Virus record (IMG/VR): IMGVR_UViG_3300020433_000014
Span: 1-43,269 of that record
From: a virus
Length of the DNA: 43,269 bases
Direction: 5' to 3' (one strand)
The stretch's first letter is position 1. Every line of letters starts with the position of its first letter. A model generated the notes under the pieces. That model saw only the letters and a program-made list of their open reading frames with translations, was not told the DNA's origin and did no database searches. This document shows positions 8,529 to 32,300 of this stretch, one piece after another. The position numbers and the translations under genes were made by a program.

Positions 8529-11500
8529 CTATTTGGAACGAACGGTTGATAAATACTCAATGCTCTTAATTCTATACTGTGCTCCGTTGTTTCCAGAGAC
8601 CTTTTCACCACCCATAATTGCGTATCCAACAACACCAGAACCAGTTGTATCTCCACCAGCATTAGTGAATGTAAGTGATGGATGTAGATTGTATGAGTTA
8701 TCTACATTTTGTACATAACCATATCCACCATTTGTAATAGTAACTCCTGCAACTTGGTCACCAGCAACTGTCATAGTAACTGTTCCTGTTGCTCTAATAT
8801 CACCAACATCTTCAAATGTCATTGTTGGTGTTGCGGAATAGTTAGTTCCTGCATTTTGAATTACAACATCAACAATTGTGCTATTCTCAGAAAATTTATA
8901 TAGATATCCAGCTTCTCCAACGTTAACATCACCAGTATTGAATGCAGTAACATCCTTCAATTGAAGAATTTTAGTTGATGAATCCCAAGAAACTACTGTT
9001 CCTCTAACACCAGATATATCTCCAGTAACAATTTCATTAACACTAAAGTTTTGACCATTACCATCACCAGCATCTAAAGTTATATTGACAAGAGCAATAT
9101 GCTCTCTTCCTTCACTAAGTCCACCTGCTGTTGCAATATTTGCATATTTAAATGGTACATTAGCATCTTTGACACTATCACCAACCTGTAATAATGTAGT
9201 ATTTGTTCCTCCTTGTGTTTCTTCAATACCATAAAGAGAATTGAAAATACCACCATCTAAACTAATTTGATTTTCAAAATCTGTTCCAGTATTTACTAAG
9301 TCAGCAATACCATTACCTGCACCTTCATTTTCTAAAATATCTTGGAATGCTCTATCCTGAAGAGTTGCAATTGGGACTGTAAGGGTTGTAATTGTAGATC
9401 CTGACTCAGTGATAATAACATGTGGATTATCAAGAGCTGCAGAACTACCAGCAACACCAGCATCAAATTGAACTGTAGCCTCTTCACTAGATGGTATACC
9501 ACCATCAATAAATGCTAATTCATCAATTTCAAATGTTAATAATAGTTCTCTAGTACTGGGATTCCAATCATAAACTTTAGCAACTTTATTATTAGCACTT
9601 TCAACTCTACGAATTACTCGATCACCAATATTAAATTTGTATGTGGAAATACCATTATCATCATTTTGACCATCATCAAGAATAACTCTCTGGTCATAAT
9701 TAAAGTTTACACCCCTAGTAATACCAGAAAATTTTTCATCTGTTTTACTAGTATATGAAATAGTTTCATAGTCTAAGATAAATTCACCAGATCCAGGAAA
9801 AGCACCAGTATTTGTTACATAAATTTCACTAGCAGATGTAGTTACGTCTTTAGTAAGACCAGACAAGTAAATATTTTTAGAATTATTTGATTGACGAGCT
9901 CTAGTCTTACGTTTAAGATTTACCAATCTCGTAAACACTACGTTTGGTGGAGAGGTATAACCTTCACCTTCATCAGTCACTGTAATGCCTGTAATCGCTC
10001 CCTGATCAATTGTAGCAACTGCTTTTGCTCCAATACCACCTCCACCAGTCAAAAGAACAAATGGAGGTTCCTGATAAAATTCACCAGGATCTGCAATTGC
10101 AATTGAAGTGACTTTTCCTGTGGCATCAATTTTTGCAGATCCTTGAGCATCCTGACCTCCTCCTCCTTCAAAAACTACTGTAGGAGCACTACTATAACTT
10201 CTACCAGCATTCAGTAATGTTAAACCTGTAACTGTTTGTACTGTAGATGTTGCAGTAGCACCAGATCCTTCACCACCTAAGATTCTTGCTTTTGTAGTAT
10301 TATAATAATTATCACCATTCTTAGTCATCTTAATGTAAGATATTTGACCACTATCAGTAATTACAACTTCTCCAGCAGCACCATCAGGAAAATCTGTTAT
10401 TAGTTCTGGAGTAGAATTACCTTCAAATAATGGTGTACCGTAAAATTTACGTCCAATAGCATAAGGATAAACAGGATTCCCACTACTATCCTCTGTCATA
10501 AAATATGCATATGTTCCATTTGGATAGTCTGGGGTTACTGCAAACTTTCCATTAAATTCATCAAGAGTTCCTATGGTTGTATCGTAAATATAATCTTGTA
10601 CTAAATCACCTAAAAGATAACCACTTTGAACAGTTCTTAATCCCAAACCGCTAGTTTGATATCCAAAAATATATAAAGCATCAGGTGCTGTTACTGGAAC
10701 AACAATTTGAATTCTTCTTTCAGTTGCTGAATTAAATCCAGCAATATATGCGGCATAATTTACTGTAGAACCATCCAATGTATATGTAACACCTAATTCA
10801 TACAAGAATGAAGTGGTTCCAATACTACTAGAGGGATGCCATCCACCATCAGTTTCGGAAAATAGTAAAAACTCATCATCGTTAGAGGCATCATCTTGAT
10901 TAAAGATAAAAGTTTTTCCTCTACCTAAAGATAAGAAATTTGGTCTAGAACCATCAAATAAAAATTCTCCATTAGAAATTGTTACATTATAAGTGATCGT
11001 ACCAGTAGTGTTTACAACAGGTCTTGTACCTTGAAGTTCTGCAGTAGTCCTTAGACGGAATGATGAAACTTCTCTTGTTACAACTCCACTATCATTAGTA
11101 ACATTAATTGGAGCTCCCATGTATCCATGTGCTTGGCATGCATAATACAAAGTATTAGGTGCATCTGAAGCAACTGTAATACTTACACTACGATTTGTAG
11201 CAGTAGAATGTCCAGCAGCATAAGTTGCATAATCAACATTACTTCCATCTAATGTGTATACAACACCAGTTTCATACCTATCAGTTCCACCATAGGCAGT
11301 TTCAAGTTGACTGAAGTATATGGCATGTGTGCTATTTGATGCATCATTTTGATTAAATGTATATGTTGCTCCTCTAACAAATGTAAGAACGGGAGATTGA
11401 GTAATAACAGTATACTGTCCACCAGTAATATAATATCCTTTACCAGAACCTTGTCCAAAAAAAGGATGATCTGATGTTTTATTATCAACAGTTACCGTGT

Positions 11501-13091
11501 AAGTGATTGTAAGACCATCAGGACTAGTGTATCCAAAAGGTCCGTAAATAGGATAACCATCAAAGGACATACCAATAATTTTAGAATGTCCGTCAGCACG
11601 TCTTGAAAGATCTATAGTTGTTTCATCATTAGGTTGAAAGAAATCTTCAGTATAATAATTATTAGTTAAAGTCTCAGCACTAGTATCTGTGCTAAGAATC
11701 ATATATCCTCTATCACCAGAAGAACCTGCCATATTTGGATGGTTCTTACAATAGTAGTAAATCCTATTAGTTTCATCCGCATTCATTATGAATATAGGAG
11801 CATATTCATTTTCATAATCTGTTGCTGGATTTGATGATGCTCCAGTGCTTGTATAATAAAGAGTTCCTGGAGTTTCGTTATGAGTACCATCAGGAGTTGT
11901 ACTAAATCTAATTGGATGATTATTATTTGAAGAATCCGATTGATTAAAATTAATTAAATAATTTCTTTTTACTGTAATATTTTCTGGAGCAAAGTAAAAT
12001 GTTCCTGGTGTAAAATTACCAAACTTTGCTGCATCTGCACCAAAATCGATATAATATGCATTAAAGGTATATGGATCCTCTATAATTTTAAATGAAAATC
12101 CTGTAGAACCTAAACATAAGTCATTCTTGGAAAAAGGAGACCCAGTAAGTTGTCTTAAATAAATTCTAGTTACAACATTACTACCATTCCTTACTACCTT
12201 AGAAATTTCTCCAGAAGCATTACCACCAATTTCATCAATAGTTCTACCTACAGCAACGGTGCCAAGAGTTTCGTCAACATTTTCAACATCTAAAACAACA
12301 TTACCATTTTCAACCTTTACGTTCCATGTAAATTGTTTTAGTTTTCCCCATTCTAAAACACCATTACCAAGTTTAAATTCATCAATAGTTTTATTTGAGT
12401 GATAGTATCTTACATTTCCTTCAGTTACAGTATCATAAACACTATTATTTTTAACATAATCATATTTTACTGTATCAATAGCAAAGTTAGTTGGTGCATT
12501 TCCTGTGGTTCCCCATTCTGGTGTATGTAAAAGACCACCATTAGAAAGAATCCCAAGTACTTTATTATCTTGTTCTACCCTAGTAGTAGGATGAGGTACA
12601 TCTTTACCCCCTCTATAGATAAATGTTTGATCAAAATTTCTATCAATTAATGGTCCTCCACCAGGTGCTGCTTCCGCTTGAATATAAGTGGGTTTAGGAT
12701 GATTATCAGATTGTATACGAAGTCTATCTGTATCTGTACTAAACGTTCCTGAGGTTGAAGAGTTTGGATGAGTTTGCCAGATTCTATTAATATCAAAAGA
12801 GTTTATAACATTTGGTGTTTCTTGTTCTGGGAAAAATTGTAATCTTAGAGGGTCATAACCTCGACCTCTTTCTAACACTCTAACGTGTATGATCTTACCA
12901 GAATCAGGATCAATAATTGGATACAGTAATGCTTCCTGATCTGGAGTGCCGCAACCAGTTATGGTTAAACGTGGTGGATTTGATTTGTCATATCCCGACC
13001 CACCATCTAATACTCGTATAGCACGTACACCAAAATTTTCATCAAAAATTGGTTTGATAGAGGCACCAGTACCAGGAACAGTTCTAGTCAT
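8529..13091 (-). CDS. 1520-aa virion protein with cupredoxin-like and interrupted YHYH-like domains
   Basis: Large structural protein. It opens with MTRTVPGTGASIKP and two GSGY-type units (24-86). Residues about 365-465 form a cupredoxin-like domain with candidate type-1 copper ligands H392, C448, H451 and M454 (CKNHPNM). At 505-520 GMSFDGYPIYGPFGY is the first part of a YHYH-like domain; the middle (RLRTT, 680-684) and last part (LDEFNGKFAVTPDYPNGTYA, 843-862) are far apart. Between them lie a second cupredoxin-like domain (about 555-665; H589, C652, H655, M658) and a third copy (about 700-815) in which all four ligand positions are replaced. Residues 917-1055 and 1406-1462 are GSGY repeats. 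A VVSWDSSTKILQL segment at 1366-1378 matches one in gp8. It starts five bases after the 407-aa gene. A fibre or baseplate role is inferred; copper binding is untested. Confidence 0.85.
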   Translation of the reverse strand: MTRTVPGTGASIKPIFDENFGVRAIRVLDGGSGYDKSNPPRLTITGCGTPDQEALLYPIIDPDSGKIIHVRVLERGRGYDPLRLQFFPEQETPNVINSFDINRIWQTHPNSSTSGTFSTDTDRLRIQSDNHPKPTYIQAEAAPGGGPLIDRNFDQTFIYRGGKDVPHPTTRVEQDNKVLGILSNGGLLHTPEWGTTGNAPTNFAIDTVKYDYVKNNSVYDTVTEGNVRYYHSNKTIDEFKLGNGVLEWGKLKQFTWNVKVENGNVVLDVENVDETLGTVAVGRTIDEIGGNASGEISKVVRNGSNVVTRIYLRQLTGSPFSKNDLCLGSTGFSFKIIEDPYTFNAYYIDFGADAAKFGNFTPGTFYFAPENITVKRNYLINFNQSDSSNNNHPIRFSTTPDGTHNETPGTLYYTSTGASSNPATDYENEYAPIFIMNADETNRIYYYCKNHPNMAGSSGDRGYMILSTDTSAETLTNNYYTEDFFQPNDETTIDLSRRADGHSKIIGMSFDGYPIYGPFGYTSPDGLTITYTVTVDNKTSDHPFFGQGSGKGYYITGGQYTVITQSPVLTFVRGATYTFNQNDASNSTHAIYFSQLETAYGGTDRYETGVVYTLDGSNVDYATYAAGHSTATNRSVSITVASDAPNTLYYACQAHGYMGAPINVTNDSGVVTREVSSFRLRTTAELQGTRPVVNTTGTITYNVTISNGEFLFDGSRPNFLSLGRGKTFIFNQDDASNDDEFLLFSETDGGWHPSSSIGTTSFLYELGVTYTLDGSTVNYAAYIAGFNSATERRIQIVVPVTAPDALYIFGYQTSGLGLRTVQSGYLLGDLVQDYIYDTTIGTLDEFNGKFAVTPDYPNGTYAYFMTEDSSGNPVYPYAIGRKFYGTPLFEGNSTPELITDFPDGAAGEVVITDSGQISYIKMTKNGDNYYNTTKARILGGEGSGATATSTVQTVTGLTLLNAGRSYSSAPTVVFEGGGGQDAQGSAKIDATGKVTSIAIADPGEFYQEPPFVLLTGGGGIGAKAVATIDQGAITGITVTDEGEGYTSPPNVVFTRLVNLKRKTRARQSNNSKNIYLSGLTKDVTTSASEIYVTNTGAFPGSGEFILDYETISYTSKTDEKFSGITRGVNFNYDQRVILDDGQNDDNGISTYKFNIGDRVIRRVESANNKVAKVYDWNPSTRELLLTFEIDELAFIDGGIPSSEEATVQFDAGVAGSSAALDNPHVIITESGSTITTLTVPIATLQDRAFQDILENEGAGNGIADLVNTGTDFENQISLDGGIFNSLYGIEETQGGTNTTLLQVGDSVKDANVPFKYANIATAGGLSEGREHIALVNITLDAGDGNGQNFSVNEIVTGDISGVRGTVVSWDSSTKILQLKDVTAFNTGDVNVGEAGYLYKFSENSTIVDVVIQNAGTNYSATPTMTFEDVGDIRATGTVTMTVAGDQVAGVTITNGGYGYVQNVDNSYNLHPSLTFTNAGGDTTGSGVVGYAIMGGEKVSGNNGAQYRIKSIEYLSTVRSK

Positions 13092-13096
13092 TTATA

Positions 13097-14320
13097 TTAG
13101 TTTAATATATTGATAGTGCCGTTCATAGCGGCATGAACAGTGCATTGATAATAAAGAGTGTTTGGAGCATTCATAGGAACAGTCCAATAAAGAATACTAG
13201 TTCCACTACCAGATTGACCATCTGTATAAGGAGTACCACTCAATCCTTGAGTACTTTGAATTCTATATGGGTGATTAGCACCATTTACACTATTATCAAA
13301 TGCGTATGTCATGCCTCGCATAACATACAATGTTGGGTCTTCTGTAGGTCCAGAAAATCCAGGACCATTAAATGTGAAATGACTACCGCCAACTGCACCC
13401 AAATCCCACCAAGTCATAGGACTGCGAGTTACAACCCAGTCAGTTCCATTCCAATATAAAGAATCTCCCTGAGTGATAGAAGGTACATCAGTATCAGTTA
13501 ATGCAGCAAAAGTTGTAGTTAAACTTCCATTGAATGCAACTGTGACTGTATCTCCAGAAATGGAAGTTACAATATCAGTTCCACCAGCTATAGTAAGTGT
13601 GTCTGTAGTTGAGTTAGCAGTTGTAGATCCAGTATCACCAGCAACAGAGGCAAATAAATTTTGTAAACTCGCACCAGCAGCATCATCACCAGGAATAAAC
13701 TTACCTCCACTAGCACTCCACTTTAAAACTTGTCCATCTGTAATTGGAGTGGATGTAATATCAACATCTGTTAGCAGATCAACACTAGAATACTCAGTAA
13801 TAAGTTTTGCTCTTACATCACCAGCACCACCAGCAGTAATATTAATATTCACATATGGATTATCATCACCATCAACTGTAAAAAAGTAACCAGTATTAGT
13901 AGCTGCAGGTGCATTACCAAGAGCAGTATACTCGTTTTTATAGGAAATAGTTGATCCTATATTAACACCTCCAGTAGCACCGTCAAAAGTAGTAGTTTGA
14001 CCTCCAGAAGTGATAAGAACATCTCCAGTCCCATTAGGAGCAATAGTAATATTTCCATTTGAAGAAGAAATAATACTATTTCCAGAAACATCTAATGCAG
14101 AAGTTAACGCATTATAATTAGCAGCAACAAAAGAACTGCCATTATATTTCAATACTTGGCCAGTAGCTGCATTAGAAAGATCTATGCTTAATGTAGCATT
14201 GTTTCCAAGGGCGGTATATATTTCATTAAAATTATCATTGATTTTATCACCACCACTTCTCAGCGTATCACCTGTATTATCGTTAGCTGTAGTACCAATG
14301 TTTACTGATTGTTTAGCCAT
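13097..14320 (-). CDS. Tail-fibre-like structural protein with C-terminal cupredoxin-like domain
   Basis: A 407-aa protein. The N-terminus (VNIGTTANDNTGDTLRSGG, then KINDNFNEIYTAL) is a motif common at the start of fibre and decoration proteins in T4-like marine phages and probably serves virion attachment. The middle is low-complexity Ser/Thr/Gly/Ala beta sequence with GQVLKYNGSSF and GDSLYWNGTDWV units typical of fibre shafts. The last 100 residues look like a cupredoxin fold: H350 (ANHPYRIQS) and the C-terminal cluster C393-H396-M399 (QCTVHAAMNG) give the H...CxxHxxM pattern of a type-1 copper site. An exact TATAAATA lies 20 nt upstream, so this gene probably has its own late promoter. Fibre identity is inferred from the N-terminus and composition. 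Confidence 0.8.
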   Translation of the reverse strand: MAKQSVNIGTTANDNTGDTLRSGGDKINDNFNEIYTALGNNATLSIDLSNAATGQVLKYNGSSFVAANYNALTSALDVSGNSIISSSNGNITIAPNGTGDVLITSGGQTTTFDGATGGVNIGSTISYKNEYTALGNAPAATNTGYFFTVDGDDNPYVNINITAGGAGDVRAKLITEYSSVDLLTDVDITSTPITDGQVLKWSASGGKFIPGDDAAGASLQNLFASVAGDTGSTTANSTTDTLTIAGGTDIVTSISGDTVTVAFNGSLTTTFAALTDTDVPSITQGDSLYWNGTDWVVTRSPMTWWDLGAVGGSHFTFNGPGFSGPTEDPTLYVMRGMTYAFDNSVNGANHPYRIQSTQGLSGTPYTDGQSGSGTSILYWTVPMNAPNTLYYQCTVHAAMNGTINILN

Positions 14321-14340: not shown

Positions 14341-14348
14341 TATTTATA
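14341..14348 (-). promoter_or_regulatory. Consensus T4-type late promoter TATAAATA
   Basis: An exact TATAAATA octamer on the minus strand, followed by an A-rich run and the ATG of the 407-aa gene 20 nt later. The stop codon TAA of the 6600-aa gene is embedded in it. This is the only full match I saw in an intergenic position. Confidence 0.65.
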
Positions 14349-17300
14349 GGATCTCTGGATCTATTAGTTCTTCACCATACAGTGAAAGATCTGGTGGAGT
14401 CCAATCATCAGGGACTGTTGTTTCAACAGTAACTTCAGGATTTTTATATCCTGAACCAGTATTAGTAACTGTAACACCTGCAATACCAACAAGTGCCTTC
14501 ACTTGACCTTCAAATCCAGAAATAGAATCTAGTCTTACAACAGGTCTAGATGTATATCCAGATCCACCAGCTGTTACGCTAACTTTTTCAATATATCCAC
14601 TAGTTAAAATTGCAGTTGCATTTGCATTTTGTCCGAAGACAGATCCAAGATAATCAAACGTAATTAATGAGTTTGAAGACTCAATAACAGCAACTTCACG
14701 ATCACTTACCTCACCTTCAATATCAATAAAGTCTCCTGCCTCAACAGGTGGTACAACTACATCAGCATCAACGTCTGCCTCAGAACCAACATAAGAGAAT
14801 CCTACAAATGTTGATCCAAAACGAGGAACTTCAGAGAAGATAATTCTAGAACCAACGAGTTCAAAACCAACACCAGGTTCTTGAAGAACACCATTAACAG
14901 AAACAATAATATTATTCTCTGGTCGAATAGTAGATGATTGAACACCATCTGTAAGAGTCAATGAGTAGAATACATCATTACGTTTCAAGTTAAATGACTG
15001 ACGTAATGAATCAAATTCAAATCCAATATCATCTAATTGTCTTAATTTACCAAGATAGAATCCTGTAAACGATGCTCCAAGTTCAGGTGCTTCACTAAAT
15101 TGAATTTTATCAGAGAATGCTGTATATGCATTTCCTGCACCAGGAGGTTGTAGAATACCATTGACAAAAATCATCATGTGACCAGCAGGATCAGGAAGAT
15201 ATTGCTGACCATTATCAGTGGTTAAATTAAATACAGTTTGAGTTCCATCAAATCCCTTAAAGAATCTCTTAGTCCTTGCTTTGAGTTCTTTTTTAGCGAG
15301 TGATGCAGATCTATAATCATTTCCTCCTCGGATACCATCTCTTGCACTAAAGGTTCCATTAACATTAGTTAGATACAATCTCTTATTAAGAGAAATATCA
15401 CGAATTTCTTGAATAAGACCAGAAGCTACACCAGCAACAGTTAAATCTCCAGAAACAGTTGCCTTTCCAACTAAGGTTACTTCAGTAATTGAATAATCAC
15501 CAACAGTATCACCAGATCCTATTGATCCCTCAATAGGAACATAATAAATGTAATTATTGACTGAATCATATTCAGTTATAATACCATAATTACTAGTATC
15601 TTGACCATCATTAACAATACGATATATTCTGTTACCAACAGTGAAACTAGTTAGAGTAGAATCTACAGTTACAGTTAATCTAACATGACCAATAGAGGCA
15701 ACTTTGTCTCCTACTTGAATATCAAGACCAGCATATTTTTTAACATCTATGTATATTTCAGAAGAATTTGGGAAAACAACAGATGTTGTTTCAAGAGATC
15801 CAATAAGAGACTGTGTGTCAACAGTTAGTTTTCCTCCAGTATTATCAAGAACTGCTGCAATGTTAATATTATAAGAAACAGGTTCTGCAGATTCGTCGCT
15901 TGTAAATCCTTGGAACGGGATATTTTCAACAAAGGTGCCTCTAGTATCAATGAGATGTAATCTATTCTCAATCGCACTAATTTGTGCAAGTGTTGTATTT
16001 TCTAAACCTTGAATTACGTCCGTAACTTGCCACGTTCCTGCAGTTACAGCAACATCAAGATACTTATAATTATCATCCTCATGGAAACCATATACAACAC
16101 CAGTAATTGCAGCATCACCTTGTTTCTGAACTGCTTCATTCATTGTGAATGGACCGTCTGTGATATTTCCATCAATTCTAAATCTCTTATAAACTTTAGC
16201 AACTTTTGCTTGATTTAAAGTAAGTTGTGAAATTTCTGCAGAAACATCAGATGTGACAGAGTAAGCATAATCAGATTGGACTATTTCACCACTAACTCCA
16301 ACAGGAATATCACGATCACCATAAAGTTTAGTTAATGTGGGTAATGCATTATTTTCATCAATTGTAGTATAAAATTCATTATCACTTAGTTGTCCAGAAA
16401 CTATATCTAAACTAGATCCAATCAATCCCATCGCTGTATCAACATTATAATTTCCAGCAACATTACTATCGTAGAACTTATCGAAAGATGCAGCTGGTGA
16501 TGGACTTACCAAAGTATTGTTGAGTGATTGTTTCATATACACTCTCATAAGATCCAATGCAAATGTTTTGATGTTATACTCTGCATTTGTAAAGAATTCA
16601 GTTCCAAGAACAGAAACATATGTTCCAAGTTCTTTTGTAGTAAGTTTAGCACCCCAAACAAATAAACCAGTACCAGTACCAGTATAATCCAATAAACCAG
16701 TGCTACTAAGAATACTAATTCTATTATTCAAAGTGCTAAATCCAAATCCAATATCTATAGTCATGAATATTCTATACCACCCATCACCCAGAGGAATAGA
16801 TCCATGTGCAGAAACATTTATACCGCTAGTGGTAAAAAGACTACCAACAACACCTGTATCTAGATTTACACTAAAGTGTGCATTTTCAGTTCCAGAATCT
16901 AAAAGAAGTGTAAATCTAATTCGACTATCCTCTCCTTTTTTAGCAAAGAATGAAGATGTGAATGTTTGACTTGAAGTATTAGAACCAGTATCAAATGTTT
17001 CTGCAGTGCTATCAAATTTAATTGTATCCTTATCAAACGTATTAAATGATGTTAAACTGTAAGATCTTTCAATCTTATGTTCACCAGTAGTTGCAGTAGC
17101 TACAAGTTTTTCAGATGTTAATGTAGTGTCTGGACTGTATTCTGCATTAGCAGTAACTGTGGTAAGAGTGGGTGTCCAATTAGAATCAAACGCCTCAGGA
17201 TTAACCCAAAGATTTGTATTATTTACAGAACCCTGAATTAGAGAACTTATATTATTTTTAGAAGTCTCAATAGTTTTCACATTACTATAATTGTTATACC

Positions 17301-20300
17301 ATTCATGTGCTGAACTAATACCACCAGTGGCAATTGTAGCAGTAGCACCAGAACCAGGTGCGGTTAAATTAGCTCCTGCTGTATACAACGTTCCAATAAC
17401 ATTTCCAATGACCATTCTAGATCCAAAAACATATAAAACGATAGCAGTTGTAGAATTATCAGTGATAGTTTCTCCAACAACAAAAGTACCAGTCAATGAA
17501 CTAAATTCAAGAGAATACGCTGTCTGGGTGTCAAATGTATTAGAAGTAATATAATCATATTGAATATTGTTAACAACATCATCAACAAATGAGTCGTATA
17601 TCCAAGAACCAATACCGAATTGAGTATTAACTAGAGATGCAATTTCTGATTTATAGTAATTTTTATTATAAAGAATATTTTTAACTACACTACGTGCTTC
17701 AACACCGCCTGGGAATAAAGTGTCTAAACCAAAGTCAACAAGATCTCTCATTCTATACCAAACTTTATTAATATCAGTAGGAGTTTCTGAATCTCTATAT
17801 GCATTGATACTTGTATGCACTGCTGCATATTGATCACCAGATACAGTATCACCATTAGTGTAAAGTAAATTCTTAATTGCTTTTTCAGACATTGTTTTTA
17901 TCAATTCATGAGCAAAGAAGAATGCATATAGTTCATCACCTAGTCCAGAATTAATTTTCTTAGTTGAATCTAAGAATTTTTCCATTTGACCAATAACACT
18001 GTTATTACCACCTGTTTGAAGATCTGAAATTGCAGCAATTATAAAGTCTTCGATATAAGTTCTGTAATCTGAAATGTTATAAGTTAATGCATTAAAATTA
18101 CCACTAAAGATTGAATACTGAAGTTCTGTTCCAAGCAATCCAAGAGTAGATTGTCTACCAGTAATTTCCTGACTGATGTACTCTCTATTGAAGTATAATC
18201 TATCACCACCAATATTAAAATCATTACTGGTAGGAGCGATGATATCATTAATAGTTGTTATTAGAGTATCAACCTCAGTTTTAACAGCATCAAAGTAACC
18301 AGAAACACCTGCACCTGTAATACCCCAATCCGCAGTAATAATATTATCAGTATTACTATAATCAAGATCTCCAGTAATCGCTTGCTTCATATAGAGACCT
18401 AATCTATCATGAGCAAATACAGATTGCCAAACCTGAAGTCTAATATGCTGAAGTTCATTTTTGTTGTCAACATAAAATCTAGCAGCTCTCACAGTATTTT
18501 TATTACCACCATATTCAATATCTTTAGCAATTCCATCAACAATAAGAGCTAAATCAGTCTTACATCTTAGAGTACCATTACCACTTCCATCAAGGTTTCT
18601 AGGCATATCATTTAATAGATCTGGATATCTAGAGATCATATCAGATGCTGCTTTATCAACAATAACAGCAGTATTTTCTCGTATTAAGAATGCAGCGTCA
18701 CGGAACCTATCTTGTGAAGATGGATCAATACGAGGTGTATAAATCACGTTAGTTGCACTATCGTGATATGAGATGTCAAACTCTATCTTATTCAATGCAT
18801 CAACTATTCCACCTTGAAATTCTACTACAGGTGCAAATCTTGTAATAGTTCCAAGATGATCTGTAGGTGTTGCTGCAGATGCGTTAGTAATTGTATCGGT
18901 AAGGATATCTATCAAGTTACCAATAGTAGAATAAACATCAGCACAATCAGCAGTAGTGTAATTTAATTCTGTTACTGAATTAGTTACTGCACTTTCAAAT
19001 TGATGGACATACTGATCTTTAGCAGAAGAAGGACCAACGTTAACAGTGATTGTTGTTGCATCAGCAGCAGTAACTGCAAGAACAGCGTTGGCAGCAGGAT
19101 CAGTTGCTCTAGGATATGCTTTAGGTGCATCATATGAATCTTTACTACATTTAAATGTGACACCACCAATTGCAATACTAACTCTAGATGAAGTTGTTAG
19201 TGAATGAGATCCAATAGTAAGAACTAAATCACCAGTTGCAGCATCATAAGTTGCATCAGTCGGTGTAAACTGATTTAATGATGTATAAGAAGAATCTGTA
19301 ATTGTAGTATCAGTTACCTGTGTTAATCCATGATTACCTTGAATTGGCCAAAGAGTATTTGTAATAATATATTGAAGCATATCATCAACTTTCTCATAAG
19401 CAAATAAAGTCTCTTTAACTGCAGGTTCAATCTGTGCAATTTGGATTGGAGTTGAAGATCTATCAACGTAGTAAGATGCAGCATCCCAAATATGACTATT
19501 AGATCCATTTCGAAGATCTTGAGCGATTGCATTTAAAGTATCACGAATATCATCTTCACAGTTAATACCTTCATCAGCAATAACACCACCAGTTACAGCA
19601 GAAACGAATTTATGTAAGTAATTACCACCAGTAACAACTGCGTTTGCTGCAGCAGATACAAATTGATGGGTAGAAGTATCTGATGATGTTCCTACATTAA
19701 TTGTAACTGTTCCAGTTTGTTTAATTAAGGCACCAGCAGTTGCAGATACAAACAAATGTGTAGATGTATCACTAGATTTTCCAATATCGATTGTAAATGT
19801 ATCACTATCAACAACAGTTACCGCAACCCATTCTCGTCTAATAGGATCAGTTTGTCTAGGATAAGTATGCTGAGTAGCATTACCATCATATGCACATGTA
19901 AATGTCAATGAATCATCAGCAATCTGAATTCTATTTCCAGTAGATAATCCATGAGCACCATCAGAATCAATTGTTAAAATACCTGTTGCAGGATCATATG
20001 AGGCATCACTAATATCTTGTGTTGATGTACCAACTGCAGTAACTTCAATGGCAGTGTTGTATGCAGCGTCAGGAGTTCCAATATTATTACTTGCTCCACC
20101 AGCAGTTCCATCTTCACCACTTGCTCTTGGGTATGTCTTCTGAGTTGTTTGACCATCACCATTATAATCACAAGTAAAGGTGAATGAATTTGCAGTCAAT
20201 CTAATATGAGTTCCAACATTTATTGTATGATTAGCAATCGTCATTACAAACTCACCAGTTGCAGGAGTGTAAACTGCGTTAGATGGTTGGAAATTAATTA

Positions 20301-23300
20301 GAGGAGATGGTCCTACGTTAACTGTTAAATTGGTAGTGCTAGAGGATATGATTGGAAGAGCAACATCTTTAGATGCTGGATCTGTTACACGAGGATATGT
20401 CTTGGTAGATACATTACCATCCATTGTGCAAGTAAATGATAACGCACCATCATTAATCTTAATTCTATCCTTTTCAACAGTAATTGCATCAACTAAAGCA
20501 CTTTCAAATTGATGAGTTGTAGTGTTTGAAGATACCCCAACATTTACATCAAATGTATGAGCAGTTACATTAGAAATTGGTATCCATTTACCAGCTACAG
20601 GGTCAGTTGAACGAGGATATGGATGATCAGATCCATAACTGTCTTCACTACACTGGAATGTAATACCACCAACTTTAATATTAATTCTTTGACCATTCTT
20701 AAGACCATGATTCAAACTTGTAATTGTCATGACACCTGTTGAAGGTGTATAAGAAGCAGTTGATGGAGTTATTGTTCCACCATTTGATAAACTATTAGCA
20801 TCCACTGTCATTGATAACAAACCAGTAACAGCATCATATGTTGCATTGGTTGGTGTGAATCTTTGACCCAGAATAACAAGTTCTGGATATCTTTGTCTCA
20901 TTTGATAGACGACTTCTTTCTTGATTAAATCACTATTCTTAAGAATTAAATTAGCAGCATCAAGATATCTGTGTGTCTTACCAGCAAATCCAGTGACAAT
21001 AGGAGTTTGATTGTTTGCATTATAAGATGCAAGAATAGAATCATTATTAAACTCTTCTCCTTTAGTTAAAGATTCGCCACCAGACCAATCTTCAGTATAA
21101 GTTTGTCCATCAACACCATCAAAGTGAATGAGTAATTTTGCATCTGTATCACCCTGTAGAATTCCTATAGGAGCAGTAAACGTTGTGGTATAACGAGCAG
21201 TAGTAGAAACTCTGAAATCATCAAAATACCCAGTAGTGATTGCAGCACCAGCATAATCAGCACCAATTCTAATTGGTTTTGTAGAACCATAGTCGCTGCT
21301 ATCAGAATATGAACTACCCTCTTGGGTACCATTTAAGAACAACTTGGTATCAGTACCACTTCTACTAAGGGCAACATGATACCAAGTACCAACTACAAGG
21401 TTTGTTGAACCTGTAATAGTATTACTACCATTGTTAAAATACTTAATATTTGCACCATCAACATACAAATAAGGAGCAAGTTCAGTTGCACCAGATCTCA
21501 TATCAAAGATAGTCTTACTACCAGCAGCAATAGTATTCAATTTAATCCAACATTCAATAGTAAATGCTCCTGTACCAAATCCAAATTCTGTAGAAGTTGG
21601 AATAGTTAGATATCCATCGATAAGAACTGCACCAACGTTAACTGTAATTGTGGTATCTGTTTCTGCTGTAATTGTAAGAGCAGAACCAGATGCAGGATCA
21701 GTTGATCTAGGATATGCTTTGTTCGCAGTGTTTCCATCTTGTTCACAAGTAAATACAACACCGCCATCAGCGATGGTTACTTTATTTGATGTAGTGAGAG
21801 TGTGAGTACCAATCTCAATTACCATATCACCCGTAAATGGGTTATATGTTGTTCCTGCAGCAGCAGTAAATGATCCTGTAGCACCATTACTAGCAGTAAT
21901 GGCATCAGTAACACCACTTACAAAAGTGTGTACTGATGTACCAGGAGATAGTGCTAGACATGCAGTACCATATTTTTTATTATAAGTGTTAAGTTCAGAA
22001 CTTCCAACAAATGTAGCTGTATGATAATCGCTTCCATCATATGAAGATCTGCCTATTTTACCAAGGAATGCAGTTTTTTGTGATGCATTGTATCCAATAA
22101 TTTCTGCCTTAGTATCGGTTGTTCTAATAACTTGACCACGAGATAAGAATCCATCACCAACCCTATCTTTGAATGTTAATTTATTAACATTAATTTTATC
22201 AGCATTTCCAAATTCACCACCATAATTTCCACCATAATCAACTTTATAGTTTCTAATAAGTTCATCGTCAACAAAATTACCACTCTCGTTATCATAAACT
22301 AAAATATTATTACTAATTGGTTCACTAGGCGGGAATGAAGAATCAAAGGGAGTTACATTATCATTAAAATCAACAATACTTACTTGAGATTTAGAGATAT
22401 CATCAAGAACTTTATTTGGGTAAGTAATAGAAGCCAATCTATTGAATAGAAGTCCAAAGAAGGAAGATCCTTCAGATATATTAACTTGTTCAATAAATTC
22501 ATTAGTTATTGGATCTTGATATGCACTAGTTGCAGTAATTCTAGCAACTACTCCAGATTTAGCACCAATAATATAATCATCCAATTGAATATCATATAAT
22601 CCTGGAGTTGACTGATATGTACCTGTAGTTTTACTTAAAGTAAGAGTATTAGTAACAGAAATTTCTGTTGAATAAATTGGAGTATTTTCTTGTTGAGATG
22701 CTGCAGCAGTACCAGAAATTCCTCTGGTTGCAGTAATAGTTGTTGACTCGGAACCATTTACAATTTGAGTAACAGTAATAAGTTCAGAACCAATCTGATA
22801 ATCATCGTTAATTGTAAATGTTCCTGTAGGAACTGGACCACCATTATAAGTATTCGCTACTAACTCAATATCAGTTGTTGCAGCACCGATACTATAACGT
22901 AGTTTTGCTAAAGGTGTTTCTTGTCCACTATCAAGGTTCGATGTTTCTACTTTTGCTGTGTCTCCAGTTAGATTAGTAACTTTCTCATTGAATAAGAATA
23001 ATCCATTACTGAATACATCTGTAACTGAACTGAGAGTACCAGAGAATCCTGTAGCACCTACTTGACATTGCTCTCCATTTATAAAGGTACCCTGAGTAAT
23101 AAATCCACTAATTACATTACCACTAACATTGGTTACTGTGAGTCTAGCAGTAGAAGTAATACCAACAAGAGTATTACCAATATTAGGGAAAATACCACTA
23201 GTGAATGAAAGTTCTAAATCTTTAGTTGCCTGTGAAGCTATAGTAACGTTTACATATTTTACACTTGCAGGTGGTTGTGGTGGTTCTGCAAATACAATAG

Positions 23301-26300
23301 AATCACCCTGAACTTCAAAAGAAGTATTTGGAGTTTGTGCTACACCATTAAGAACAATTAAAAGTTGATCTCCACTAGCAATAACATTTTCACCATTATT
23401 AACAGTAAGTGGGAATTGAGTTTTAACACCGTCAAATTGATCAGAAATATCATCTAACCTTTGAACAACAGAAGTTAAGATATTCTCAGATGATGTAAGT
23501 TTCTTTTGACGGAATAGAACTTCAGTATTATTAAATTCAGAATAAATTGGTTCTGCTAGAGCAAAGTTTTGAATATTTGGTACAACTGCTTCTCTAGTAA
23601 GTTCAACTGACTTAGTAAGTTCAAAATCAATTTCTTTATTTGCAATAAAACCATAATCTTCTAAATTAAGTTCACCAAATACCTTAAATGATGCAGGATG
23701 AACGTTTCTAATAAGAATATCCTTCCAATCATCGATAGATACAGAAGACTTAACAGCATAAGAAAAATCTTGATAGTAGTAAGAGTCTTGAATCTTTTGA
23801 ATAATCTCTGAAGGTTTACCAACATCATTAATAAATTGTCCTGTAGTTTTGGTTATAGGACCAATTTCAAGAACACCTTTAGCAATATTAATATCACTAA
23901 TAATACCAGAAGATTTAGATATAACACCAGTTATACTTTCACCTTGAGTAAATGTATTATTATAATCTACAATTTTAAGAATTCTAGGACCAACCTGCCA
24001 TCCTTCATTAGTAGATACATATCCAGTGGCAGTTGCCGAATCTAAAGAACTACCTTGATATACAAGTTCACCCTCTAAGAAAGTTGATGTAATAACATTT
24101 GCTTCTGCTGTAGCACCAAAAGCTTTAGTCAATACTTGCTGTCTTCCTTCACCAGCATTTACAAATGAAAGACCATCACCTAATTCAGCATTTGCTGCAG
24201 TAATTGCTAACTTCATCTGATCAGGTTCTAATGAATTAGCAGTACCAGTGATAGCGTAATATGTTGTAGTTCCATTCAATCTACCAACCGCACCTGCAGA
24301 TAATGGATATTCTGCACCATCTCCAGTATCTACTACGTTCAATGTGATCTCAGAACCATTTACAATTCCATGAGGAAAAGCAAATTGAAGAAGACCTAAG
24401 TCAAGGTTAACGACATAGTTAAATGAAGATCTAAGTTCAACTCTGGGTGAAGAGGAATATCCAGCACCAGGATCTTTAATGATAATATTATCAATTCTTC
24501 CATTTCTAATAGTTGCTTCCGCAATGGCACCAGTTCCACCACCACCTGTTAAAATTACTGCAGGTGCTTGTGAATATCCAGAACCAGGATCAGTAACGGT
24601 AATACTATCAAGAATACTTGTAGAAGTTAACTGAGCATTAATTGGGAATGTAATTTCAGGACGGAGTGTGTAATCATGAGTATAATCATATCCAAAGTTA
24701 TTGTTCTTAAGTTTCTTAATCTTACCAACATTTGTTCCTTTTGCGAAAATTACAGCACCAGTACCAAATGCAGGAATGACTACGTTAATAACTGCTCCAG
24801 ATCCAGTTAAACCAGATCCAAGAATACCCTCAATAGATTCAATATCAATAGATGCAGTAGTATATCCTTTACCTGGAGATGTAATGTCTACAGACTGAAT
24901 TTGACCAGGAATAGTTGCACCTTCATCATCAGTTCCATCAGCAACAGTAATTTGAACAAATCCACCTTCACCGTCTCCAGAAATAGGGACAGAACTGTAT
25001 ACACCTACAGCATATTCAGTTCCTGGTTCTTCAATTTCAATTCTTTCAATTTTTCTTGAAGATTGAATTCCTGTTATAACAGGTAATTTTGAATAGAATC
25101 CACCTGAATTAATTAATCGAATATCACCAATTGCACCAACAGCTTTCTTGGAACTTGTTGTATAGGTAGTTGTTAGAACATTTGCATTACCCTCAGGTTC
25201 ATTAGATAAGAGGAATTTAAATATTTTTGCTCCTTGAGTAATAGTTCCACCAGCAGTTTCAGTAATAGTAAACGTTCCCAAGTATGGAGAATCAACAATA
25301 TCCAAATAACTATTACTATCAATAGGTGAGTCATCTCCTGTTCTAGATGGATCAAAGTAGTAAGAAATGTTAGTAACAATATCATTATCAACTTTTAACT
25401 TAATAGTTGGATTTGGTTGTCCAGCACCAGTAACACCAGGAGTTCCAACTCGTTCAATAGAGTTAAATGAATATTCTAATTTATACAAATTATCTTTAGA
25501 GAAAGATAAATTTGTCCCTACCATAGAAGAGTGAGAAACATCAAACAAATATTGATGTCCATAGTACATTTTTAAAACTGGAGATTTAGCAAAAATATTA
25601 ACATTTCCAGCAGTAGTAGCAGGATCTGTTTGAGCTACAGAGTTTAATTTATATGTAAATTCTTTATTACTTACAACACTATCAACAACAAAAGATCCAT
25701 CATATTCATCATATGCGGTTCCACTAAGTTCTTGAGTAGGATTACCATCAATGTTAATATTATCACCAACAGATAAGTAATGCCTATCTGAAGTAATTAC
25801 ATAAACCTCATCAGTATTTGATACTGCACTTACTTGGAGAATTTTATCAAGTGTAGAGATTAGTGTTATTTTAGTTACACCAGTTAAATTAGTAATTTGT
25901 GCTGTTGATTTAGCAGTGTTAAAAGTTATATCACTAGCAGTAATATCAACTACAGATCCAGGAATAAAAGAGGAGGAACCACTAATTTCAACAATTTTTA
26001 CTTTATAATCAGCAACAGCAAATGGTTTGAATGTTGCAAATTCATCAAGATCTCCATTTCCAGTTGTAGCAGCAGTTTTATCTAAATTATAGTCAGCAAG
26101 ATCAAAATCAAACGTTCCAGGTGTAGTATTAATTTTATCAATAAAATTATAATCTGGAATAACGTTAACATCAAAAGGAACTGGTCCTACAATTCCATAA
26201 GCACTAGACTCATTAAATTGTGCTGTAGATAAACGACCTGTAGTTAAATCATTTGACCAAGTATTATTATTTACAGCTAGATAAACTTTATTATTTGTAG

Positions 26301-29300
26301 TATCTTTTCTTAAAACATAACCACTATTAATAAATGCACCAGAAGTATTATTAAGAATAAGTTTCGATCCAACAGTAATATTGAAGTTTTGGTTAATTGT
26401 AAGTTCTTGAATATTATCAATTTTTAGAGTATTAGTCGTTTTTATGTAATAACGATTTTTAATCTCTGCAGAAATTTTTAGTTTCTTAGATCCAGGAGAA
26501 GGAACTGTTGCCGTTCTAGAACTCCATTCATCATTAGTATAACTAAGAGATTCAGTATTCTCGGTCATATTAATTGTAGCATCTTCAAAATCAAGACCTT
26601 GAAGACCAGTGCTTCCAAGAGCAAACGTTGTATTAGTTACAGTTAAAGTAGATCCTGTAACTGGTGTAATTGCAGTTCTAATAAATCCAATTTGAGTATT
26701 AGTTTGTAGACCTTTATCTCCAAGTCTATCAGAATCAGAATCTTTATCAGATTTTAAACCAAAACCAACATAATCAATAAAATCATGTTTTTGAAGATAA
26801 TCAGTAAACCAAGCATCATCCAACCAATCATATGCTAAAGCATAAGATGCTATAGGTGGAAGAGTAGTTACATCAGAAGGAACTGTAGGAGTTATTGCAC
26901 GGTTCCTTAAACGAAGATTATCAATGTATCCTTGGAATTGTTCATTCTTACGGAATTGGGCAGTAGTACCACTTCTACCAGGAATGTTACCAATATGAAT
27001 ATCTTTATTACCGAGTGATGTAGAAGCAATAGTACCATTTAAAACGGAAATACCATTCACATACACATTAAATGTATTATTATTTTTTTGAACTGCAATG
27101 AACTGCCAAGAATTATCGGCAAACATTGTTGTAAGTGTAGATTGAAGAGCACCACCAGCAGAATTAATTGCTGTTGAATTATTTGTAACTACTAATTCTA
27201 ATTTACCACTCGTATCATCATAATACAACCAAAGACCACCAGTAGCATCTGTTGCATCACCAATATTCAATAAAGTATATTGAGTTTGACTATGTGACTG
27301 ATATTCAGATCCATTTTTGTAAAGCATGAACTCAAGAGTCCAATTATCATTTAATTTTGTTCCTAAACTTGCTGCAGGAATCTTAATAGCAGCATTTTCC
27401 CAAACACTAGGAGATGCAGTTTGATATCCTTGAATAAATGCATAATCTGCAAGGAATCTTACAGAATCACCTGCTTGAAGAATAGTTGGAGTATAGTGAC
27501 CAGTAATATCTGTAGTTTGATCAGCACCTGTAGTAAAATCAAACAAAAATTCATTTCTGTTCCATTGTGTTTGACCAAATATGTAAGGATCTCCAGAATT
27601 ATCTACAGTGATAGCGTGAGCAGTAATACCTTCAATATTTTTTTGATTAAACTCAGTATTAGTATGTTTTTTAAGTTTACCATCATAACTAATTTTTACA
27701 GTATCAACTGTTTTTAAATCAGTCGTGGTATTGGTTTTAGTGAAGGCAATATTTAAATCACCAAAAATATCAATAGTGCTTCTAGAAGCAATTTGAACAT
27801 TATTACCTGCAGGAACTGCATAACGATAATTCCAAATCAAATCACCAGAGGTATCAATTTTACCAACCCAGAAATTATCTTTAATATTATTATCAGATTT
27901 TAAAGCAAGAGTTGCTGTAATATAAAATTCATCAAATTCATCAACAACTAAACTAGTATCTCTAAAGGAATAAACAACATTATTAATTTCTTTAATCCAC
28001 TCAATTGTAATTTCAGAGGTACCAACAAGTGCCTTACCAAAAGCAATTTTTGAATCTGCTGCACCATCGGAAGCAGAGACTTCCATGATAAAATAAACCG
28101 CATCATTAAGTACAATCAAATCAGTAATTTTTTCTGATCCAGAAGCAGATGCTAGTTTTCTTTTTGCAGCAAAACTTCCTGCAGAATCAATGGATGCTAT
28201 AAATCCATCTTGAGGATTAGAAGAGTTGGTATTAGTGAAACCACCAATAATGTATCGAGTATCAGAATACTTTTTAATTGCAGTGATATTATCAGATCTA
28301 GTTGAACCAGAGATACCTGCATATCCCTTTTGGAAACTAAGAGTTGCACTCAATCCATCAGTTGCTTGAACATACTTAACAAGTATAATATCAGGGTTGT
28401 ATGTACTAAGTGAAATTATATTTGGTTTATTTTGACCAACCACCCAAATATTATTACCACTAACATCTAATTTTAAAAATTCAGTGTAGTTAACTCCAGC
28501 AGTACTTTCAATAGTTTTTTCCCATTCTTTAACACCAAGTTCAGAGAATTTAGCAACAAATGCAACTTCATTACCACCTGCATCAAGAGTCTTTCCACAG
28601 AAAAATACTTCTTTTAAATCATTTACAACTACATCATTAATTTTAACATAATTTTCATGTTGAACTAAAGAAACATAGTAATCAGCTCTTTTAAACACCT
28701 GTGGATGAGAAAGAATAACACGAGGATTCTTAGTATATCCAGAACCAGAATTTACAATATCAACAACATTAATCGCACCAGTATTAGTTACATTTGCTCT
28801 TAATTGACCAGATTCTCCATCACCATCAATAACAATAGTAGGAGGAATTTCATTGTCATATCCAGATCCTGCTTGATCAATTGTAATTTGTTCAATACCT
28901 TTTAATTGTCTAACGATAAATGTTTTATTAGTTTCATCCATTACAGGAGTGTAATCAATAAAAACTGAATCTCCAGGAACTATGTTATGAGAATTAGTTG
29001 TTGTTAAAACACCATAGAATTGATCTTCAACAGTCTCAAAAGTATATGCACTTACTGGTTCACCTTTAATTTTAGAAATTCTAGCAGATACACCACTACC
29101 ATCAGTATCAGTATTGTCAAATATAAGAATATCATCAACCTGATAACTTACACCAGCATCTTCAATAGTAAATCCAGTTACCGAAGCATCTTCAAACTTT
29201 GTTGTAGTTTCAACTTCAATATCAACTTTTGAATCAAATTTAACTTTTGGAAAATAATCAAATAACTGAAGAGGAGATTCTTCAAATAATTGATCAGGAT

Positions 29301-32300
29301 CATCAGTTTCTTCTTGAGATATTACACCATCTCTATTTTCATCTTCAACATCAAAAAGTAAAATATCACCATCTTCTGTTGTTATTGCATTTGTAGATAA
29401 ATTAGGAGCTCTTTCAACATCAATATCAACATTTTCATATGGATCACGATATCTTACAACCCCAGTAGGAATATTTTGTTGAATAGCATCCTTGTTCAAA
29501 TTCCAAGAATCTACAATAGAATTAAAACTTGGACCTAAAACATAAGGAAATATTGCATTTCCTGCTTCAGAATTGTCAATAGTAATGAAATAACAATATC
29601 TTCCATTTGGAAAATCTGGAGTTTTACAAAAACGACCATTATATTGATCTAAATCTCCAAGACCAAAAGAATATTCATAATCTTCAATAAATCTTCCTGC
29701 TGGTTCTTCAGCAAGTAGAGGACCAGCAGTTCTAACTGGCACTGGGTTAGTATCAGTATCTAAAACTAAATTTGATTTAAGTTTGTATGATGTATCTAAT
29801 TTTGTAATTGTAGATGATTGATCTGTAGGATCTGAAAATCCATATGGACCGTAAATAGGATTTCCATCAAACGCCCAACCAATAATAGGAGAGTGAGCAA
29901 GTTGATCTTCTTGTTCTAAAATATTTCCAGTACCAACTTGCTCAAAAAGGTTATCACCAAGGATATATCTTAATCGTTGTGGATTTGAAATATGTGCATA
30001 TTCACCACCATATTGATTATTATACCCAGGAAACACAGAACCTTTAGCAGAATCTACTGTAGTAGTCTCTTGAAGATTATAAGTCCATTTAAATACATTA
30101 GGAGTAAAGGTTGCATCAGATCCAACAGAAGTAAGGTTAATAATTGTTGTTCCTTGGATATAATTAATACCTCTATTAATAATTTCAATACTTGTTACTC
30201 TACCAGCATTTTCTCCATCAAGATCGATATTCGCACGAGCAACTGCACCAAAACCATCACCTTGAATAGTAACTTCTGGTGCAGTTGTATATCCACTACC
30301 TGCAGAAATAATTGCGATAGAAATAATTCTACCATTATTTACAATAGCTTGTGCAACAGCACCAGAACCAGAATTAAGAGTAACTGTAGGATTAGATGTA
30401 TATGATTCACCACCATTGGTTATAGCAACAGATTTAACTGGACCTCTTACCGAAGCAGTAGCAGTAGCACCAGATCCACCACCACCAACAATTGTAATAG
30501 ATGGTTGAGATGTATATCCAGTTCCATTTGTATTCATAAGAATATTGGAAACAACACCTTTAGTAACGATAGCAGTCGCTGCAGCACCAGATCCACCGCC
30601 ACCAACAATGGAGACAAGTGGAGAAGAAGTATATCCAGATCCACCATCATTAACAACAATTTCTGTAATAGAACCATTAACAGTTACAGTACCTGTGGCA
30701 CCTGTTCCACCACCTCCTGTAATCTCAATATTTGGAGGGTTTGAAGCATCATAATCAAAACCAGCATTTGTAATATTAATAGAAGTAACTGGTCCAAAAG
30801 TTTTTGTTACATCTGACTTATATGACCAAACAGATGTTCCATTAATCCAAGTTCCAATCGCACCAGGAGCAATATTATTTTTAACAGAAATAGTCTGAGG
30901 ATTTAATGGAAATCTATTAAGTTTACGTTGATTTCCTGGTAAAAGTGCTGATCCTGGAAAAGGACCAATTGAATAATTAGGAATACCAGTAGATGCAACA
31001 TAAACAAAATCATTATTAAAGAAAGAGTTTTGAATATTTGTTGTATATGGACCAATAGAATTTAAAACAGCAGTATTATCAGATTTACCTTTGTTAAGGT
31101 CAACTGAAACCAAAATATTTCCTTGAGGAACAACTTCTGCTGGTTGAGGAAGTTCATATTGGAAAACAAGAGCATTATCTCTAGATTTTACCAAAAATGT
31201 TCCATTAAACAAAATTGGATTTGCACCATAAAGTGTTACCTGATCTCCAACTAAAAGTCCATGATTATTTTTACAAGTAACTGTAGCAAATTGATTATTA
31301 ACACCACCGTAAGTGATACTTTCTACTTCAATAAGTTTTTTAACGTTATACAACCAAGTTTGTAACTCTGGTTTATCAGAAGTACCACCTAGTTTAGAAA
31401 CAGTAAGTTTATCACCTTTTAGGTAATATGAACCAGTATCTGTTAAACTTGTCTGTTGAGCATCAACAATTCCTACAACACTTAGAACTACCTCTTGTGG
31501 CGTTCCCTTATTTACATAAACAAGAAGATTAGATGTGACTTCAGTTGCAGAATCCCAATCTTCTACAACATTATTAACAGAACGAGTACATTCGATAAAC
31601 TGGTTAAGAGATTTTTCTTTGTATTGAATTAATTCTGAATCACCGATTAGAAATTCACCGTTTCTTTCTGGCCAACCAATAGTTGAGTCTACAGTTATGA
31701 TACTATCAGTTGTATTAAGAGGTTCTGCAAGTTTTGTTTTATAAGGAACTACAAATCTTCCAGTAATAGTTTCTTCAGAAAGAACAAGTTCAAAAAGTTC
31801 AACGTCTGATGTTTTGATAGAGATGAAATTTTCAATTAAAGCACTAGCTGCACCAATATTATCATCAGCAATACTTAAATCTTGAGTTAATAATCCATCT
31901 TTAATATTTGTAGGATCTCCACTTACTAATGTAGCACGAAGAATTGTATCAATAGACCAAGTTGCATTAGAAGGTTTAATAATTTGATCTTTTGGATAAG
32001 ATACACTTACTTGCTCACCATAAAGAAGTTTGAAGAGATATGCAATACTGAAAGAAGTTCCTTTCGTAGAATAAAAATCTTTTACTGATTTAATTGCATT
32101 TCTTACATCAATCTTAGTAAAATCAAGTTCAGGAACATCAGGGAGAAATTGTTCTGTATACTTGTCCAAAAGTCTTTTTACAAAAAGAGCATCAAGGCAC
32201 TTAATTTGTGTGTCTTCCTCAGCAGTTGATGCTATGGTGTTATTTGAAAATACCGCATTCCCAGATGCAGTATACTCAATAATACCACTAACTGCTCTTG

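Follow-up and report, generated by a model that had tools for sequence, protein, structure and literature searches.

In phage T4, gp9 joins the long tail fibers to the baseplate and has a beta-structured, fiber-binding C-terminal domain. The T4 attachment apparatus also carries metal, in the form of iron held through HxH in the trimeric fiber protein gp37 (PMC11705849). Cupredoxins are likewise found in cyanophage genomes as the auxiliary metabolic gene product PetE, a plastocyanin that, in the available sections of its description, is encoded by a separate small gene (lengths 324 to 369) and is linked to photosynthesis (PMC3037559). The stretch of DNA considered here, a 43-kb virus record (IMGVR_UViG_3300020433_000014), was analyzed over all of its 43,269 nucleotides, referred to below as the window; it holds part of the genome of a T4-like marine cyanophage (the source phage), with the block of baseplate genes. 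Two of its genes, encoding gp9 (407 amino acids) and a gp10-like protein (1,520 amino acids; gp10 below), contain cupredoxin-like domains. Unlike PetE, these domains sit inside baseplate proteins, and in contrast to the gp37 iron sites, a mononuclear type-1 set is predicted for each ligand-bearing domain. The data obtained in this study indicate that the C-terminal domain of gp9 (gp9-C) and the gp10 domains D1 and D2 are probably genuine mononuclear metal-binding cupredoxins, with type-1 copper in an amicyanin-like spacing as the most likely site.

The 407-amino-acid protein was assigned to gp9 by a profile search in which PHROG_677 aligned over its full length (residues 1 to 406 on positions 1 to 409 of 412) and by the placement of the Pfam family T4_gp9_10_N (PF07880) at residues 3 to 100. 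It is also named gp9 in the annotations of relatives, the closest isolate among the matches listed being Prochlorococcus phage P-SSM7, whose gp9 is 89% identical. The name gp10 for the 1,520-amino-acid protein was taken from gene order and the annotation of relatives. With PHROG_677, the gp9 connector, and PHROG_708, a wedge subunit, the description of both products as structural proteins in the initial annotation was borne out. The N-terminal domain of gp9 is held in common with T4: PDB matches to T4 gp9 and gp10 fell within residues 3 to 66, and enterobacterial T4-like records matched the first 71 gp9 residues only (among the matches listed, 60 of 1,523). Escherichia names were found for none of the 352 records that matched the cupredoxin domain at E values up to 1.

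Both reading frames and all twelve ligand residues (Table 1) were exactly as originally reported; the first His stands in the contexts NHPYR, NHPIR, and THAIY. Mutual alignment also recovered the four related domains that had been described, three of them (gp9-C, D1, and D2) with a complete His...Cys-x2-His-x2-Met set and one, gp10 D4, without ligands. In all three ligand-bearing domains, one strand terminates at Cys and another begins two residues beyond the first His, a placement that characterizes cupredoxins. As in amicyanin, plastocyanin, rusticyanin, and auracyanin, the first His of the cupredoxin sandwich precedes a middle strand and Cys ends a late strand, and as in type-1 blue copper proteins, His and Met lie in the loop after the Cys strand. 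Within gp9, gp10, and a 6,600-amino-acid protein of the same window, C-x2-H-x2-M occurred solely as the three complete sets, and a six-frame scan of the whole window found only one other instance, on the + strand near position 40482. Four Cys residues are present in gp10, C448 and C652 among them.

Table 1. Coordinates of gp9, gp10, and their domains and predicted ligand residues in the window
Feature	Position	Strand	Basis or conservation
gp9, baseplate wedge tail fiber connector, 407 amino acids	13097..14320	-	PHROG_677, E 1.5e-189; T4_gp9_10_N
gp9-C, C-terminal cupredoxin domain, residues 301-407	13100..13420	-	Predicted model and VIA match
gp9 His350, predicted ligand 1	13271..13273	-	Invariant, 48/48
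gp9 Cys393, predicted ligand 2	13142..13144	-	Only Cys of gp9; invariant, 48/48
gp9 His396, predicted ligand 3	13133..13135	-	Invariant, 48/48
gp9 Met399, predicted axial ligand	13124..13126	-	Invariant, 48/48
gp10-like baseplate wedge protein, 1,520 amino acids	8529..13091	-	PHROG_708 baseplate wedge subunit, E 0
gp10 D1, residues ~347-466, H392/C448/H451/M454	11694..12053	-	gp10 alignment; masked-profile match, 26.3 bits
gp10 His392	11916..11918	-	Kept, 59/59
gp10 Cys448	11748..11750	-	Kept, 59/59
gp10 His451	11739..11741	-	Kept, 59/59
gp10 Met454	11730..11732	-	Kept, 57/59
gp10 residues 502-521, YHYH-type segment before D2	11529..11588	-	Read by eye
gp10 D2, residues 553-664, H589/C652/H655/M658	11100..11435	-	Masked-profile match, 116 bits
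gp10 His589	11325..11327	-	Residue confirmed
gp10 Cys652	11136..11138	-	Residue confirmed
gp10 His655	11127..11129	-	Residue confirmed
gp10 Met658	11118..11120	-	Residue confirmed
gp10 D4, residues ~698-823, ligand-free cupredoxin fold	10623..11000	-	VIA match to auracyanin A
gp10 residues 825-869, part of YHYH domain	10485..10619	-	PF14240 best stretch, protein E 5.3e-12

The AlphaFold2 model of gp9 had predicted local distance difference test (pLDDT) values of 87 to 95 (ten-residue means) over residues 301 to 407, with mostly low confidence in the remainder. When this model was compared with the PDB by Foldseek, all 50 matches listed were copper proteins; rusticyanin, three-domain nitrite reductase, and amicyanin were the best, with laccases and others also listed. 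By VIA, gp9-C matched the N-terminal cupredoxin of HdNIR (6tfd_A, residues 28 to 135) with a Z score of 10.1 and 2.0 Å over 91 residues, and rusticyanin (2cal) with a Z score of 9.5 and 2.8 Å over 98 residues; according to the tool's own note, a Z score under 8 may mean merely a common arrangement. For gp10, residues 330 to 900 were modeled, with pLDDT values of 72 to 90 per ten residues in D1. The VIA matches listed for this model spanned at most local residues 190 to 510 (D2 plus D4), and D4 was matched to auracyanin A with a Z score of 8.5 and 2.8 Å over 100 residues.

Relatives of gp9 were collected with search patterns free of C-x2-H-x2-M, and the motif was present in the C-terminal part of 81/81 gp9 ORFs (open reading frames; 80 relatives and the source's own copy). 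When the source copy was aligned with 47 of the 80 fetched loci, H350, C393, H396, and M399 were unchanged in all 48 sequences, while 28% of the well-filled gp9 columns were invariant overall. The gp10 alignment comprised the source and 58 of 137 candidate regions, near-identical ones having been dropped. Around the D1 ligands (Table 1), the majority of neighboring columns were variable across these 59 regions; the Pro after the first His was present in 55. D2 with its ligand set was found in four of the 59 regions only, the source included, and by this alignment appears to be a sporadic, rare modular insertion. In D4, the columns equivalent to the ligands were mostly E/Q/N, A/G/S, T/S/N, and L/H/Y, and Trp751-His752 (10836 to 10841, - strand) was invariant in 59/59. 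D4 thus serves as an internal control: since it keeps the fold while its ligand columns drift, the fold alone does not force retention of the ligands.

The profile was then rebuilt with the ligand columns masked, and all collected loci were searched. Among 232 distinct domains whose matches covered the four columns, 201 had four ligands, one had three (Met to Ser), and 30 had none; no domain had one or two. Without the loci from scans that had ligand residues in their patterns, the counts were 121, 1, and 17 (n = 139), and after clustering of this reduced set at 70% identity they were 27, 1, and 9 (n = 37). The tally leaves aside 81 of the 313 distinct domain sequences, whose matches did not span all four ligand columns. 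The D4 GWH motif was present in 52 of these 81, including the source's own D4 (E, G, and T, with the last column uncovered), and the rest were mostly D1 matches ending before the Cys-His-Met loop, together with a remnant in S-PM2, pieces from P-HM1 and P-HM2, and a ligand-free copy of 486 amino acids in P-SSM7. The near-absence of partial sets is what would be expected of a metal site, despite the bias of the profile, and the four ligands appear to be under joint selection in the family. A chance motif was considered as well and was ruled out by the motif scan, the conservation in gp9 and gp10, and the masked-profile counts.

The register with known copper proteins was examined with a profile built from 29 divergent sequences of phages and genome contigs, a hand-picked set in which every member bears the ligands and in which the only invariant columns were H, Y, C, H, and M. 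Against the PDB, 49 sequences were matched at E values up to 1. Copper proteins accounted for 47 (plastocyanin, rusticyanin, amicyanin, nitrite reductase, pseudoazurin, azurin, laccase, and copper oxidase); the other two were an endopolygalacturonase and a ribosomal protein. In the alignments with plastocyanin (2plt) and rusticyanin (2cak), all four ligands coincided with the copper ligands of these proteins. The best match, at an E value of 0.0016 and with Cys, His, and Met in register, was 9cck, the C-terminal cupredoxin of a multicopper oxidase from the marine organism Nitrosopumilus maritimus. Its C-x2-H-x2-M spacing is identical; unlike the gp9 and gp10 domains, it belongs to a copper enzyme, and its first His was unaligned. 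The leading E values were modest (0.0016 to 0.004) and therefore point to remote homology. Only this profile gave the blue-copper list; with smaller ones, the best E value was 0.36 for the first small alignment, and ten phage domains matched mostly laccase pieces at E values of at least 0.02.

The proposal of cupredoxin-like domains with type-1 ligand sets is thus backed by the fold, by the register with plastocyanin and rusticyanin, and by conservation. The likeness to plastocyanin and azurin that had been drawn holds for the order and register of the ligands (2plt) but not for their spacing: the gp9 and gp10 sets have the C-x2-H-x2-M loop, which is the amicyanin spacing, unlike the C-x2-H-x4-M of plastocyanin visible in the profile alignment. 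The surroundings also differ. Type-1 carriers are free periplasmic or thylakoid proteins, whereas the gp9 and gp10 domains are C-terminal or inserted baseplate modules, and their genes lie among baseplate genes rather than being encoded with methylamine dehydrogenase, as is amicyanin, which accepts electrons from that enzyme.

Several results weigh against a copper-binding reading. No copper-protein family in Pfam, PF00127 (Copper-bind) included, gave a match passing threshold for the gp9 and gp10 domains of the source; in one relative (locus L210), PF00127 scored 18.0 bits, below its gathering score of 21.2, and no NCBIfam copper family was found among the five proteins scanned. The structural comparison with cupredoxins proposed in the initial annotation was positive for gp9-C and weaker for D2, whose single D2-only VIA row (Z score 7.4, 3.2 Å, 109 residues) lies in the tool's common range, and D1 had no separate PDB match among the VIA matches listed for the gp10 model. 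The predicted cupredoxin fold is therefore well shown for gp9-C, less well for D2, and not separately for D1, where homology suggests it. The masked profile was trained on ligand-bearing members, so that ligand-free ones are under-found, and the GWH motif of D4 was present in all 30 ligand-free domains, which are thus one orthologous domain and represent one loss, not thirty. In S-PM2 (AJ630128, 50763 to 50873), a structural protein of the virion contains a decayed copy of the domain, with Cys kept and the second His changed to Gln, a mixed ligand state. P-SSP7 gave no family match, and the site appears dispensable for some marine cyanophages; together, the S-PM2 remnant and P-SSP7 argue that not every marine cyanophage needs it. 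D4 shows, in addition, that the fold can stand metal-free, and stability alone may not explain the conservation.

Beyond the source phage, a tblastn search with gp9-C matched 338 of 50,697 phage records at E values up to 0.01, many of them near-identical isolates. All except one, named "uncultured," carried the names Synechococcus, Prochlorococcus, cyanophage, marine virus, or Pelagibacter (337 of 338). Eleven distant phage matches were hand-picked from the listings, where their identities were 30 to 46%, and all eleven had the four ligands; they include podovirus P-SCSP2, pelagiphage Baldr, S-TIM5, Bellamy, P-SSM2, and P-RSM6. A scan of bacterial and archaeal genomes, with a pattern in which Cys and the second His are fixed and the first His and Met are free, found 45 loci, many of them from marine groups by title, and 45/45 keep the four ligands. 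With the masked profile, the four ligands were present in 46/46 distinct genome-contig sequences. Some of the 45 contigs are possibly viral or proviral, as several Pelagibacter ORFs start like phage tail fibers when read by eye; five further ORFs share a phage-looking N terminus by the same reading, and not every contig is certain to be cellular.

Nine of the 45 ORFs from genome contigs were scanned against Pfam; one more was excluded because of an unknown residue in its sequence. The domain was carried by a collagen-like protein with an endosialidase-type chaperone, a collagen-like archaeal protein, cadherin-domain proteins, an M64/RTX protein, a protein with repeats and a propeller, and short ORFs, one of which, from SAR86, has a lipoprotein-like N terminus. 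Matches of the gp9 model in BFVD were to cyanophage fiber, connector, and other proteins. The common thread of the family members is read here as an environment-facing surface module, and their sequences suggest a distinct, mostly marine cupredoxin family with members both in phages and in marine proteins of the surface type. The four SAR86 or gammaproteobacterial ORFs that carry the domain and have lipoprotein-like N termini by eye (loci L196, L191, L211, and L204) are possible marine copper lipoproteins. Further BFVD matches of the gp9 model were small beta-sandwich proteins from relatives of pithovirus and marseillevirus.

From the identity of gp9 and gp10, gp9-C, D1, and D2 would be located at the outer baseplate, close to where the fibers attach, with one predicted copper per ligand-bearing domain in the mature virion. 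T4 has six trimers each of gp9 and gp10, and by this stoichiometry a particle of the source phage would have up to ~54 predicted sites. At one end of the sandwich, the metal would connect the strand of the first His with the C-terminal loop that carries Cys, His, and Met; the domain so locked would face outward and hold or support the tail fibers. Free copper is scarce in the host cytosol, in which gp9 and gp10 fold, and the site would therefore probably acquire its metal at a late stage, at the cell surface or once the cell has lysed. The role considered most likely, with about half of the weight, is that of an attachment or adhesion domain that faces the environment and is locked by metal, and redox or receptor roles are serious competitors. 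Next in preference are structural binding of zinc or Cu(I) and a function as redox switch or copper lure. In the structural reading, the virion sites would be occupied by Zn(II), Cu(I), or Ag(I) instead. The cytosol in which phage proteins fold offers more zinc than copper, and azurin made in the Escherichia coli cytosol often holds zinc. A Cys/His/His/Met set is, however, typical of copper, and zinc sites seldom use Met, so that occupancy by another ion is doubtful. The cupredoxin sandwich might also serve as a mere beta module whose ligand residues are kept for packing. D4 is such a module, and the C-terminal domain of T4 gp9 is beta-structured, but with four ligands kept in 201 of 232 domains and three in one, and with no invariant columns other than the ligands and one Tyr across the 29 divergent members, packing is quite an improbable reason for their retention. 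A plain scaffold for all four domains was accordingly rejected for gp9-C, D1, and D2 and accepted for D4; the beta-scaffold option offered in the initial annotation thus suits the ligand-free domain and fits the other three badly.

A redox switch would act differently from a metal-locked attachment domain: redox conditions at the cell surface, set by light or metabolism, would determine the copper state and gate fiber deployment or adsorption, which could explain the light-only adsorption of some cyanophages. Type-1 sites are redox centers. P-HM2, for which five family matches were found, three with all four ligands by eye, is unable to adsorb in the dark, and P-SSP7, with zero family matches, infects in the dark according to the available sections of the same study (PMC7112961). 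Two phages are no test, however; P-SSM2 and P-HM1 also have four family matches each. S-PM2, reportedly among the phages of the light-dependent adsorption paper of Jia et al. (2010), has a broken copy only, with the second His replaced, which points the other way. Such a switch is held unlikely, as is its broader form, in which the baseplate and fiber joints of abundant marine T4-like phages, with dozens of redox-active type-1 copper centers acquired extracellularly, would respond to redox, light, or copper and so control fiber deployment or host docking, giving the virion its own blue-copper chemistry. Virion copper might instead be a lure or scavenger, recognized by components of the host surface that take up or bind copper. 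For iron, the parallel idea is the Ferrojan/Trojan Horse hypothesis, in which the metal in marine phage tails is proposed as receptor bait (PMC11705849). The many sites per particle, probably outward-facing given the identity of gp9 and gp10, would favor it. Against this, no such receptor is known to us, and buried type-1 copper is poorly exchangeable; a lure is held unlikely as well.

A second metal may be present in gp10. Its YHYH domain (PF14240) is apparently split over 10485 to 11588 (- strand), with D2 and D4 between its segments, the first of which was recognized by eye; His502, Asp511, and columns 513 to 518 were invariant in the 59 regions. The YHYH domain is predicted to bind zinc in the available sections of a jumbo-phage review (PMC7824862). 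Because D2 and D4 lie between the segments of this putative zinc-binding domain, gp10 may be a two-metal protein, as suggested by its YHYH and cupredoxin domains together.

An origin of the gp9 and gp10 domains by capture of PetE was not supported, as no cyanobacterial contig occurred by title among the 45 genome loci, an absence that says little on origin because a single scan pattern fixing Cys and the second His was used. In S-SCSM2R, a gene annotated as PetE (170926 to 171432; L217:3282-3788) matches the gp9 cupredoxin domain and had no Pfam match. It adjoins an S8 peptidase gene and a gene named FhaB and may be a mislabeled member of the gp9 cupredoxin family.

Cupredoxins and cyanophage PetE are already known, and a cupredoxin family built into virion attachment proteins is apparently new: no description of one was found in a literature search that was thin on subscription journals and bioRxiv. 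In the available sections, no cupredoxin or plastocyanin is mentioned in the P-SCSP1u cryo-electron microscopy (cryo-EM) paper, where the distal fibers are not resolved, and no cupredoxin is mentioned in the A-1(L) tail paper or the jumbo-phage review (PMC7824862); the corresponding part of the pelagimyophage paper has YHYH only. Across the Pfam scans of this study, no model reached its threshold on the cupredoxin domains of the family defined here, which phages and surface-type marine proteins have in common. The sequences and models suggest that virus particles may carry copper on their attachment machinery. If copper is held, virions would bear a stoichiometric transition metal on the attachment apparatus, with a bearing on host finding, virion stability, light-dependent adsorption, and seawater copper. 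T4-like cyanophages are among the commonest viruses of the sea.

Other baseplate genes of the window were identified by profile searches as gp8 (510 amino acids; PF09215), gp6 (676 amino acids; Gp6-like), and a further baseplate wedge subunit (139 amino acids), followed by a match to a PAAR-type PHROG. The latter is a 193-amino-acid protein (36897 to 37478, - strand) that matched PHROG_281 and had no Pfam match. Between gp9 and gp6 lies the gene for the 6,600-amino-acid protein (14344 to 34146, - strand), which occupies almost half of the whole window; the protein contains a YHYH-like HSPIIGWAFDGNPIYGPYGF segment and lacks C-x2-H-x2-M. A 2OG-Fe(II) oxygenase-type protein is encoded near the structural block, at 41099 to 41731 (- strand).

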